Source of the DNA: Oscillospiraceae bacterium
GTDB taxonomy: Bacteria > Bacillota > Clostridia > Oscillospirales > CAG-272
DNA: 64,000 nucleotides
NCBI GenBank assembly: GCA_015064885.1
Contig: SVRJ01000003.1
Span: 1 to 64,000, forward strand
Direction of reading: 5' to 3'
The notes beneath the pieces were generated by a model. That model did not search any database. It was not told the origin of the DNA and saw only the letters and a program-made list of their open reading frames with translations. The position numbers and the translations under genes are program-made. This document shows, in pieces, positions 60,564 through 63,776 of this stretch. How positions within the stretch are numbered: the first letter of the stretch is position 1; each line of letters begins with the position of its first letter.

Positions 60564-61367
60564 ATGCAGGAATTTCTCAAGCAACTTATAACATACGCTT
60601 GCAACCTCGGAAGCAAGCTTATCGTTGCAGTTATCGTATTTTTCGTTGGAAGATTTCTTATCGACCTCGCTCTCAAGCTCTATGCCAAGTCAAACAAGAA
60701 GGGTAAGCTTGACGTTACCGTACATAAGTTCGCAGGCAACTTCATAAAGATCGCTCTTTACTGTGTACTCGCCGTTACCATCGTAGGTATACTCGGTCTT
60801 CCCACAGCAAGCTTCATCGCTGCTTTCGGATCTGTCGGTGTTGCGATCGGTCTTGCTCTTCAGGGCTCGCTTTCAAATTTTGCCGGCGGTATTATGCTTC
60901 TCGTATTCAAGCCCTTCAGCGCAGGTGACGTTATTGAATCCGGCGGTGTAGTCGGCACGGTTGAAGCGATCACACTCTTCTACACCTACGTTGTAACTCC
61001 CGATAACAGAAACGTTACAATTCCCAACGGCACACTCGCAAACAGCACTATCTTCAACAGCTCTGCCAAGGACGATCGCCGTGTAGATATGCAGATCACA
61101 GTTGCAAGCTATTCTGACCTTGATCTTGTAAAGAACACTCTTACGATCCTCGGTGAGAATCATCCCTCTGTTCTCGTTGACAAGGGCGTATACGCAAGGA
61201 TCTCTTCCTACACTCTCAACGGCATTGCAATTGATTTTAGAGTATGGTGCAAGAAGGAAGACTACTTTGCAGTAAAGGCAGATCTTCTCGAACAGATCAA
61301 CGAAGCGTTCAAGATCCGCGAGATCACCATCCCGCTCAACCAGCTTGACGTTAACCTTAAGAAATAA
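60564..61367 (+). CDS. mscS: Small-conductance mechanosensitive channel (MscS)
   Basis: A 267-residue channel that opens under membrane tension to release solutes during hypo-osmotic shock. Three transmembrane helices lie in residues 15-100; the pore-lining TM3 is AAFGSVGVAIGLALQGSLSN with the Gly/Ala packing pattern. The beta domain follows (FKPFSAGDVIESGGVVGTV, VTIPNGTLANSTIFNSSA), then the C-terminal alpha/beta domain. The length is close to E. coli MscS. The start follows AAAAGGAG. It is monocistronic, with a promoter and a terminator. Confidence 0.94.
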   Translation: MQEFLKQLITYACNLGSKLIVAVIVFFVGRFLIDLALKLYAKSNKKGKLDVTVHKFAGNFIKIALYCVLAVTIVGILGLPTASFIAAFGSVGVAIGLALQGSLSNFAGGIMLLVFKPFSAGDVIESGGVVGTVEAITLFYTYVVTPDNRNVTIPNGTLANSTIFNSSAKDDRRVDMQITVASYSDLDLVKNTLTILGENHPSVLVDKGVYARISSYTLNGIAIDFRVWCKKEDYFAVKADLLEQINEAFKIREITIPLNQLDVNLKK

Positions 61368-61388
61368 TAACATACACATCACTATTAT

Positions 61389-61418
61389 GAGGGGCACGCT
61401 TGTGCCCCTCTTTTTTTA
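61389..61418 (+). terminator. Terminator of mscS
   Basis: AGGGGCAC pairs with GTGCCCCT around GCTT and is followed by seven T residues. Confidence 0.88.
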
Positions 61419-61451
61419 CGGAAATAGGCTGCGAGAGTTGTGTGCGAATAG

Positions 61452-61641
61452 AATATCACTGAAGCCGCAAGGCTTCAATATCACGATTGCGATAGCAATC
61501 ATATCACTCTTTGCGAAAGCAAAGAATATCACTAAAAGCAGAAAAAGAGAGAGCAAAGCGGTTTTTCTTTCCGCCTTGTTCTCTCTTTGTGTTTTTATTG
61601 CGAGCTTCGCATTTGTTTAACAAATGCATCGGGCTATGCCC
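61452..61641. repeat. Array of short hairpins spaced by ATATCAC
   Basis: The unit ATATCAC occurs four times (near 61453, 61478, 61501, 61526). Between copies lie tiny perfect hairpins of different sequence: GAAGCC-GCAA-GGCTTC, ATTGC-GATA-GCAAT and CTTTGC-GAAA-GCAAAG. After the fourth copy come a longer stem (61544-61588), TGCGA-GCT-TCGCA (61599-61611), GCATTTG-TTTAA-CAAATGC (61609-61627) and GGGC-TAT-GCCC (61631-61641). The loops are often GNAA-like. No gene is seen in 61368-61745. It may be a mobile mini-repeat or a processed RNA. Confidence 0.7.
61544..61596 (+). terminator. Long hairpin with T-run
   Basis: AAAGAGAGAGCAAAGCGG pairs imperfectly with CCGCCTTGTTCTCTCTTT and is followed by GTGTTTTTA. 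It looks like an intrinsic terminator embedded in the hairpin array. Confidence 0.5.
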
Positions 61642-61705
61642 ATATTCCTATTATAGATTCTCCGATAAGGACAACACCCGTATTTGTCGCGGCCTTTTTT
61701 TGATC

Positions 61706-61745: not shown

Positions 61746-63776
61746 TCAATGAGGGATATTATTACCGTTGTCCGATCCGGGGAAGGAATTATAGTCGCCG
61801 TTCAGGTCGTCAAGTCTCTTCTGTGCAGATTCTTCACGTTCTTTCTTAAGCTGCTCCTGCTTTTCCTTTTCCGCTTCGTTGTCTATCTTACTCTGCTCTT
61901 CCTTGTTCGTTGAAACAGCCTCAACCTCTTCAACGGTGGGCGTACCCTCCATAACGAGCTTGAACTGGTCTGCATCCATTTCCGAGTGAGTAAAGAGATA
62001 GTCGGCAATAAAGTCGAGTTTCTCTCTGTTTTCAGTGAGTATCTCAACAGCCTTATCCATACAGGAGGTAATAATGCTGTGGATCTCTTCGTCTATCTTT
62101 GCAGATACGTTTTCACTGTAATCTCTGTTAGCGGAGAAGTCTCTGCCGAGGAATACGTTGTCATCGTGTCCGCTGCCATACTTGACGGGACCGAGCTTGT
62201 CGCTCATACCGTACTTGGTTATCATCTTCTTTGCAATAGCGGTAGCTCTTTCTATATCGTTAGAGGCGCCGCCTGTGTAATCGCCGTAAACAAGTCTTTC
62301 AGCCGCACGTCCGGCAAGGAGCACGGAAATTTCCTCTACAAGCTCTTGCCTGTACTCGCTGACCTTATCACCCTGAGGAAGATTTATCGTGTAACCGAGA
62401 GCTCTTCCGCTCGGGATTATTGAGATCATATGAACGGGGTCGCAGGTGGGAAGCACGTAAGATACGATGGCGTGGCCCGCTTCATGGTAAGCCGTATTCT
62501 TCTTTGCCTTATCGGAGAGATTTATCGACCTCTTCTTAGGACCTGTGATTATCTTGAGGAAGGATTCCTCGATCTCCTTCATACCGATAAGCGTCTTGTT
62601 TCTTCTCGCAGAGAGAAGTGCCGCTTCATTGAGAAGGTTTGCAAGATCCGCACCCGTAAAGCCGGCTGTGGATTTTGCTACGGTATCAAAGTCTACGTTG
62701 CCTTCAAACTTCTTGTTTCTTGCGTGTACCTCGAGAATTTCCTTTCTTCCCTTCTTGTTCGGGTAACCGACTGTTATCTGTCTGTCAAAGCGTCCGGGTC
62801 TGAGAAGAGCGGGGTCAAGGATGTCGGGTCTGTTGGTCGCAGCCATAACGATTATTCCGTCGTGCGAGCCGAAGCCGTCCATTTCAACGAGAAGCTGATT
62901 AAGTGTCTGCTCTCTTTCGTCGTGTCCGCCGCCGAGACCTGCGCCTCTGTGACGTCCGACAGCGTCTATTTCATCTATGAAAACTATACTTGCCGGATAC
63001 TTTCTCGCGTTTTCAAAAAGGTCTCTTACACGCGATGCACCTACACCGACGTACATTTCAACAAAGTCGGAACCGGATATCGAGAAGAACGGAACTCCCG
63101 CCTCGCCGGCAACCGCCTTTGCGAGAAGTGTTTTACCTGTACCCGGAGGGCCCATAAGAAGAACACCGTGGGGGATCTTTGCACCGAGCTTTGTGAATTT
63201 TTCGGGAGACTTAAGGAAATCCACTATTTCCTCAAGCTCTTCCTTTTCTTCATCCGCACCCGCTACGTCTTTAAAGGTGACCTTATTTTTATCGTCTGTT
63301 GCGAGCTTTGCACGGCTTTTGCCGAATGAGTTTATCTTGGAGCCGCCCTTTCCTCCCGCCATCTGTGAGTTCACGAAATAGAAGAGACCTATTATCACGA
63401 ACAGTATGATCACGTAGGGGAGAAGCTGTATCCACCAGGGCATCGTCTGATAAGGCTCGTATTCATACTCGGTAAGTATTCCCGCCTTCTTCTGCTCGAG
63501 TATGAGCTCTCCCAGATCCTGATAGAATATTCCTATATCGCGTATCTGATAGTTTACCGTCTTAAGACTTCCGTCCTCTGTCTTTACCTGCATGCTTATA
63601 ACGTTATCGTCACTTATAACAAAGGACTCAACGCTCTCACTTGTAAAGTACTGTACCACATCCGAATATACGGGCTTATCTCCGGTGTTCACTCCCGAAA
63701 GAAGAGAGAAGATAACCGAGAAGACAACAAATATAAGCACGAGATATATCAGAATGACCTTCCAATTGTTTTTCAT
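61746..63776 (-). CDS. ftsH: ATP-dependent zinc metalloprotease FtsH
   Basis: A 676-residue membrane AAA+ protease for quality control of membrane and regulatory proteins. Two transmembrane helices (about 5-25 and 115-137) flank an extracellular domain. The AAA module has Walker A GPPGTGKT, Walker B IVFIDEID, the pore loop [13 protein letters not shown] and the arginine-finger region RPGRFDRQI. The zinc site is [14 protein letters not shown], with the distal acidic ligand near [11 protein letters not shown]. The C-terminal 60 residues form an extended, charged tail ([20 protein letters not shown] and beyond), longer than in Bacillus. The ribosome site is poor; a leader hairpin CACAGC-ATA-GCTGTG lies at 63795-63809. 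It follows hpt by 66 nt, the classic Firmicutes order. Confidence 0.97.

Follow-up and report, generated by a model that had tools for sequence, protein, structure and literature searches.

Architecture of the ATATCAC array

The intergenic stretch between an mscS-like gene (60564-61367, forward strand) and ftsH (61746-63776, reverse strand) raises the question of what kind of element is formed by a row of short hairpins that differ in sequence and are separated by one constant heptamer. It lies in the window, the 64,000 nt of Oscillospiraceae bacterium contig SVRJ01000003.1 analysed here. A pattern search placed the starts of four ATATCAC linkers at 61453, 61478, 61501 and 61526 (61453..61459, 61478..61484, 61501..61507 and 61526..61532, all on the forward strand), and the gaps between them are filled, with zero spare bases, by perfect hairpins on the same strand (array 61453-61532). 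Mini-hairpin 1 (61460..61477, TGAAGCC-GCAA-GGCTTCA) has a 7 bp stem and a GCAA loop, mini-hairpin 2 (61485..61500, GATTGC-GATA-GCAATC) a 6 bp stem and a GATA loop, and mini-hairpin 3 (61508..61525, TCTTTGC-GAAA-GCAAAGA) a 7 bp stem and a GAAA loop; each rests on its fold and on covariation at the homologous position. Four more stems follow 3' of the array, namely a long hairpin (about 61542-61597) and three short stems between 61600 and 61641 (GCGAgctTCGC, GCATTTGTttaACAAATGC and GGGCtatGCCC). The spaced array described in the original prediction is therefore real, with four linkers, three perfect hairpins and four further stems, and only the stem length of 5-6 bp given there needs correction, to 6-7 bp.

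RNA folding of 61400-61700 gave -105 kcal/mol, compared with -69 kcal/mol for shuffles (z -7.2). The mscS-like gene possesses its own terminator at 61390-61417. Two ORFs of 91 and 112 aa that overlap the array stretch look spurious, and the array is not read as protein-coding, since most of its unit lengths (21-25 nt) are not divisible by three. Guide arrays of the TIGR or CRISPR type were likewise dismissed, as the variable segments are each self-complementary and homologous across species. A tRNA scan identified none, and an Rfam scan of the whole window returned zero matches over the gathering score; the first reading of this sequence knew of no named element of this kind, and no named family was found here either.

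Distribution and covariation of ATATCAC units

The array is not the single occurrence that the original prediction had named as the outcome that would speak against it. Of 295 genomes from the same family, 185 contain the hairpin pattern, searched as ATATCAC-N14-24-ATATCAC; they represent 62 of 71 genera. The reversed pattern used as a control occurred 0-2 times per genome and strand. The genome-wide search proposed earlier yielded, in the genome of the window itself, three loci with seven genuine hairpin units between them. The triple-array pattern matched at least 117 loci in the GTDB species set; among the 117 listed, 88 have a flush hairpin and are mostly from Clostridia/Oscillospiraceae MAGs of the herbivore gut, and the 29 matches without a hairpin (Planctomycetes, Prevotella, Bacillus and others) were set aside. 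Triple-ATATCAC matches in viral contigs were considered mostly due to chance, with a flush hairpin in only 6 of 80 loci, and the leader module described below was absent from viral contigs.

The loci fetched contain 193 distinct perfect ATATCAC units, compared with 0 in shuffled loci, and this number reached 201 after more loci were added. Among 56 distinct right-half blocks, many two-sided changes were identified at homologous stem pairs; pair 2 of hairpin 2, for example, is A-T in 15, T-A in 9 and G-C in 5. Given these two-sided changes and the constant linker, pairing is kept while stem sequence drifts. The covariance check suggested earlier thus gave clear covariation in homologous hairpins, and the earlier view that conservation lies in the pairing and not in the sequence was borne out. 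ATATCAC arrays also occur outside the cassettes described below (L015, L166, L167 and L168), usually with CCTTAAC and one further hairpin ahead of them.

Complete elements and the truncated copy in the window

An all-against-all comparison of the loci gave sharp element edges, one about 126 nt ahead of the right block and, on the other side of this block, one at +80 to +240. Complete elements consist, in order, of a left terminal hairpin (TTGGCGTGATACTC...), a left half, a centre, a right half, a terminator-like long hairpin and a right end (CTCCGATAAGGACATCACCC), which is the inverted repeat of the left end. Their hairpins are linked by GTGATAT to the left of the centre and by ATATCAC to its right. 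They measure about 0.3-1.7 kb and possess imperfect terminal inverted repeats of ~20 bp; those designated type 1 are about 330-400 bp, non-coding, bounded by terminal inverted repeats and present in many copies.

Local alignment of the window copy (61421..61679, forward strand) to a complete copy from another genus (G182:C24:38853, or L162), situated at an unrelated locus, showed 96.2% identity over 236 nt. Only the part between centre and right end aligns; the left half, with the left inverted repeat, is therefore missing from the window copy, which retains the right half of a ~350-bp element. The feature is probably a left-truncated, cargo-less member of a family of transposable elements. 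The original prediction was right on pairing and missed both this larger, mobile, terminator-inserted element and its truncation.

The remnant of the element centre (..GCGAATAGA, 61435..61452, forward strand) aligns to GCTTTTAGGCGAATAGA of L162; most members have this centre ahead of the first linker, with GGCGAATAgA conserved. The long hairpin at about 61542..61597, to which no strand is assigned, has A-tract and T-tract flanks and a fold common to type 1 members, and it resembles a bidirectional intrinsic terminator and belongs to the type 1 element, which lacks cargo. It is followed on the reverse strand by a leader-like module (61600..61657), identified by comparison with cassette leaders, in which TATAAT precedes GGGC/GCCC and ATTTGT/ACAAAT hairpins and GCGAAGCTCGCAATAA; the same module is found directly 5' of the cargo ORF in cassettes. 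The right terminal inverted repeat (CTCCGATAAGGACAACACCC, 61660..61679, forward strand) matches the right ends of complete elements and is the inverted repeat of left ends. Beyond it, TCGCGGCCTTTTTTT (61687..61701, forward strand) is probably the 3' arm and T-tract of a host terminator, as judged from complete copies. Its 5' partner is uncertain in the window copy, as AGGCTGCGA (61426-61434) may be element-derived.

Insertion into terminator loops

Complete copies are flanked by two mutually pairing arms with A-tracts and T-tracts, which are different at each locus. For 16 elements delimited blind to their flanks, with boundary regexes widened from a narrower first set (9 elements), pairing of the own flanks surpassed the 99th percentile obtained with swapped flanks in 15 of the 16, and the own partner was the best match in its row in all 16. 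Empty sites were identified at two loci. For the insertion in genome G182, its congener G297 holds an empty site with an intact terminator (AAAAAGCGCTTGATGC-GAATTC-GCATCAAGCGCTTTTT); for that in G227, the orthologous stretch of its congener G309 is uninterrupted and its hairpin closed, and a G154 locus shows another closed hairpin. Comparison with the empty sites in G297 and G309 revealed no target duplication. The elements have been dispersed and are inserted into host intrinsic terminators, at the loop, without visible target duplication.

Gene cassettes and their cargo

Larger members of the family are cassettes with the order left end, optional ATATCAC block, sigma70-type promoter, optional gene of the RAYT (REP-associated tyrosine transposase) HUH/Y1 type, constant leader, one variable cargo gene, terminator and right end. 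The promoter (TTGCTT-N17-TATAAT) lies to the right of the array and is followed by the leader (GGGGTATGGGC..GCCC..GCCTTTGTAATACAAAGGCGAAACTGGCGATAAA), an ORF, the terminator (CCCCGACAG..CTGTCGGGG) and the right end. At L162, the host arms enclose the whole ~900-bp unit, ORF included. The leader module was detected in 86 of 295 genomes, and the ORFs behind it at 40 fetched leader loci are nearly all different, a few cargos recurring. Pfam analysis of 20 cargo proteins identified GNATs (3), DMP19, EamA, Peptidase_S51, DUF4299, HTH_3 and DUF7660, with no Pfam match for the other 11. One cassette (L231/L238) shows 95% identity between two genera. A terminator loop as constant target would be a nearly harmless intergenic landing place, and such targeting would explain the spread of small unknown genes in gut Clostridia.

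Two recurring cargos were identified, both in the 88-90% identity range: a protein beginning MLL(T/S)NYDFYDIYW... at L204 (G000:C20, in the genome of the window) and L078, and one beginning MFSLFSKK... at L226 and L099, in each case in cassettes of different genomes. In most cassettes (L159, L201, L202, L206 and many more), a CTCTCCC...GGGAGAG palindromic element occupies the RAYT position instead.

The structured strand

When stems are read on the ATATCAC strand, G.T pairs outnumber A.C pairs (29 versus 9) and G.A pairs outnumber C.T pairs (42 versus 8), many of the G.A pairs being tandem. In hairpin 1 of L068, L110 and L097 (TGTGAGGC-GTA-GCCGAACA), and in others, tandem G.A/A.G pairs recur at the same position of stems that are otherwise perfect. 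On this strand the tetraloops comprise 38 GNRA and 34 GNYA (72 GNNA), GNA forms 65 of 113 triloops and the closing pair is C-G in 199 of 219 (first tally), these loop statistics coming from units related by descent and not independent. The strand that carries ATATCAC is the structured one. In RNA, GNRA alone is favoured among tetraloops; DNA tolerates GNNA. A scan of terminator loops, a crude and noisy RNA control, gave GNNA in 9 of 84 loops as opposed to 72 of 111 in the arrays, and the TTCG-type contrast in the same control was not significant. GNA minihairpins have been described as very stable in DNA (Hirao 1994, Yoshizawa 1997, as cited in PMC6479982). Since the loops follow the DNA rule (GNA, GNNA) and not the RNA rule (GNRA), loop types and pair asymmetry favour a single-stranded DNA structure rather than a small RNA.

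A reading of the array as RNA, either a small regulatory one or a structured one in which GNRA-like tetraloops are under selection, is accordingly held to be improbable. Such an RNA would be consistent with the preference for one strand (G.T over A.C), with the many GCAA, GAAA and GTAA loops, with the strong RNA folding of the stretch and with the promoter and terminator pieces within the element. However, 34 of the 72 GNNA loops break the GNRA rule and GNA leads among the triloops; the left-half hairpins have their good loops on the opposite (bottom) strand; Rfam holds no match; and the cassette promoter is downstream of the array, which is therefore not in the cargo mRNA.

A second explanation, by which the hairpin rows are neutral by-products of replication slippage or template switching at palindromes, is considered more improbable still. 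Intrastrand template switching does yield perfect stems of changing sequence, and at L082:2537-2952 a 68-bp three-hairpin unit has been amplified to about six tandem copies. Template switching would not, however, hold a 7-nt linker constant, and neither a one-stranded preference for GNA/GNNA loops with a C-G closing pair nor tandem G.A pairs at a fixed place would be expected from it. Hairpins folded in single-stranded DNA remain the preferred reading, and the arrays would then represent a natural data set on the DNA mini-hairpins preferred by evolution.

A RAYT gene as candidate driver of transposition

In several cassettes, a slot of fixed position, after the promoter and before the leader, encodes a protein with the motifs MPNHxH and YI(Y/F)ENP. 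This protein matches the REP-associated tyrosine transposase model REP_Tyr_transpos (NF047646, E 3e-18), although NCBIfam hits are mostly under the curated cut-off (66 versus 80 bits), and its alignment with the solved TnpA_REP structure (4er8) spans the HUH motif and the catalytic Tyr. A Pfam search of the RAYT proteins gave no match. RAYTs with HUH and Tyr are carried by the cassette members L176/L213, L230 and L220, not by the window copy; the genome of the window encodes one RAYT, in the cassette slot at L204 (G000:C20). A complete unit of 1.66 kb, L176/L213, carries a RAYT and a GNAT gene and has host arms on either side, and long inverted repeats surround the RAYT gene in L176 (complete), L296, L299, L321, L325 and L330. 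Two RAYT lineages were distinguished, and the lineage matches the type of the element ends in 17 of 19 cases: lineage A has type A ends in 11 and type B ends in 2, and lineage B has type B ends only (6 versus 0). The two exceptions, L295 and L296, hold a lineage A RAYT within type B ends, suggesting that ends may have been exchanged between elements. The leader co-occurs with a RAYT (63 of 86 genomes with the leader versus 92 of 209 without; Fisher p 6e-6), and co-occurrence of array and RAYT is moderate (odds ratio 2.3, p 0.0015).

The family is probably a cargo-carrying, terminator-targeting, RAYT/TIRtron-like group of transposons of gut Clostridia, with the ATATCAC arrays as single-stranded DNA hairpins. 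The RAYT would act on the element ends as single strands and would move, via single-stranded DNA, both itself and, in trans, RAYT-less derivatives. Terminators may attract insertion because they are themselves folded in single-stranded DNA. The array would correspond to REP-like single-stranded DNA mini-hairpins with constant feet, which the transposase may recognise or which may keep a single-stranded end folded; the stems could vary yet stay paired because selection acts on the folding of one strand. A bolder reading, slightly less likely than not, is that RAYT-driven cassettes folding via rows of GNA mini-hairpins enter terminator loops and carry single accessory genes between genera, in an integron-like manner without an integron. 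Against the RAYT model count the absence of a left end from the window copy, the arrays outside cassettes (L166-L168), the two lineage A RAYTs within type B ends, the only moderate association of array and RAYT, and the low NCBIfam scores.

Alternatively, another transposase (DDE or other) may act on the inverted repeats, with the RAYT as one more cargo gene; this is regarded as unlikely, if less so than the RNA reading. Two distant RAYT lineages in one slot and recombining ends (L295, L296) would agree with it, as would the many cassettes without a RAYT, which are the majority, and the long inverted repeats, which are more typical of DDE elements. Nevertheless, the RAYT slot is fixed and upstream of the leader rather than in the variable cargo slot, the empty sites show no target duplication, no other transposase was seen between the element ends read, and RAYTs with TIR flanks have already been described as TIRtrons (PMC3733652).

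The RAYT is retained as the putative mobiliser but is no more than a candidate partner enzyme of the array, since an ATATCAC block and an intact RAYT were never found together among the elements read and RAYT genes contain GTAG REPs. Single GTAG-type REPs are inserted in frame within RAYT genes, and the usual substrate of the enzyme may thus be these REPs rather than ATATCAC hairpins. RAYT genes of subclass 2.4 are known to contain REPs (PMC6006769), and TnpA_REP is guided by the loop and by stem irregularities (PMC8266576). GTAG-footed REP pairs (GTAGGGGTGTTCTGTGAACGCC..GGCGAACACAGTTCGCCCCTAC) are also located ahead of the right end, on the minus strand, in L213, L230 and L162.

Relationship to known mobile elements

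TIRtrons (TIRYT) are RAYT-type tyrosine transposases with long terminal inverted repeats (PMC3733652). The present family resembles them in having a RAYT-like Y1/HUH gene between inverted repeats and ends that also occur without the gene; unlike them, it includes ATATCAC blocks and a cargo gene preceded by promoter and leader, and its insertions lie in terminator loops, with empty counterparts at two loci. The GGGGWSAS motif of many, not all, described TIRtrons was not found in the ends here (GCGTGATRYTCTTARCGGAG or TTCTCATAAGGATGTTT). With REP, BIME and REPIN sequences and their RAYTs (PMC3116915, PMC2817692, PMC6006769, PMC8266576), the family shares rows and inverted halves of intergenic palindromes, a foot that stays constant beside each hairpin, an HUH enzyme acting on a single strand and dispersed non-autonomous units. 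As in BIMEs and REPINs, palindromes are oppositely oriented around a centre in complete elements, the window copy having the right half only. The array is not a REP, however: REPs possess a 5' GT[AG]G foot and a stem conserved within the family, whereas ATATCAC units are flush, have the ATATCAC foot on both sides and lack a GTAG foot, and their stems change freely (201 distinct perfect units).

In MICs (MICBce1 type), a passenger gene takes the place of the transposase, and bacterial MITEs and MICs are moved in trans. The present elements are likewise short with terminal inverted repeats and differ from both in their HUH/RAYT association, their terminator-loop target and the absence of a visible target duplication. 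Mitochondrial double-hairpin elements and palindromic repeats are also mobile mini-hairpins but, as far as their descriptions go, are without a constant 7-nt linker or a link to cargo cassettes (PMC5910586, PMC7218506). IS200/IS605 elements have subterminal hairpins in place of inverted repeats and a fixed tetranucleotide 5' of the insertion; the present family has inverted repeats, and the empty sites place its junction only approximately. Integron gene cassettes are alike in organisation alone (one cargo gene per unit); the cassettes here have their own promoter and a single unit is found per terminator. No report of cargo-carrying RAYT elements, terminator-loop insertion or ATATCAC hairpin rows was found in the literature searched, which lay mostly outside subscription journals.

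According to Quentin et al. 2018, evidence for mobility of RAYT (class 2) genes is lacking (PMC6006769). Here, RAYT genes are located within discrete terminator-inserted elements, with ends common to RAYT-less cargo derivatives and with empty sites at two loci; RAYT-driven transposition and cargo transfer therefore become directly testable. If the model is true, RAYTs, generally held to be domesticated and immobile, would drive mobile cassettes.

Rows of hairpins with other spacers were also observed. At L007:1380-1559 (G000:C27, in the genome of the window), a second row combines another constant spacer (TATGGAATC) with variable GAA-loop hairpins, and L158 contains a row with spacers of CAATTCATG-like words.
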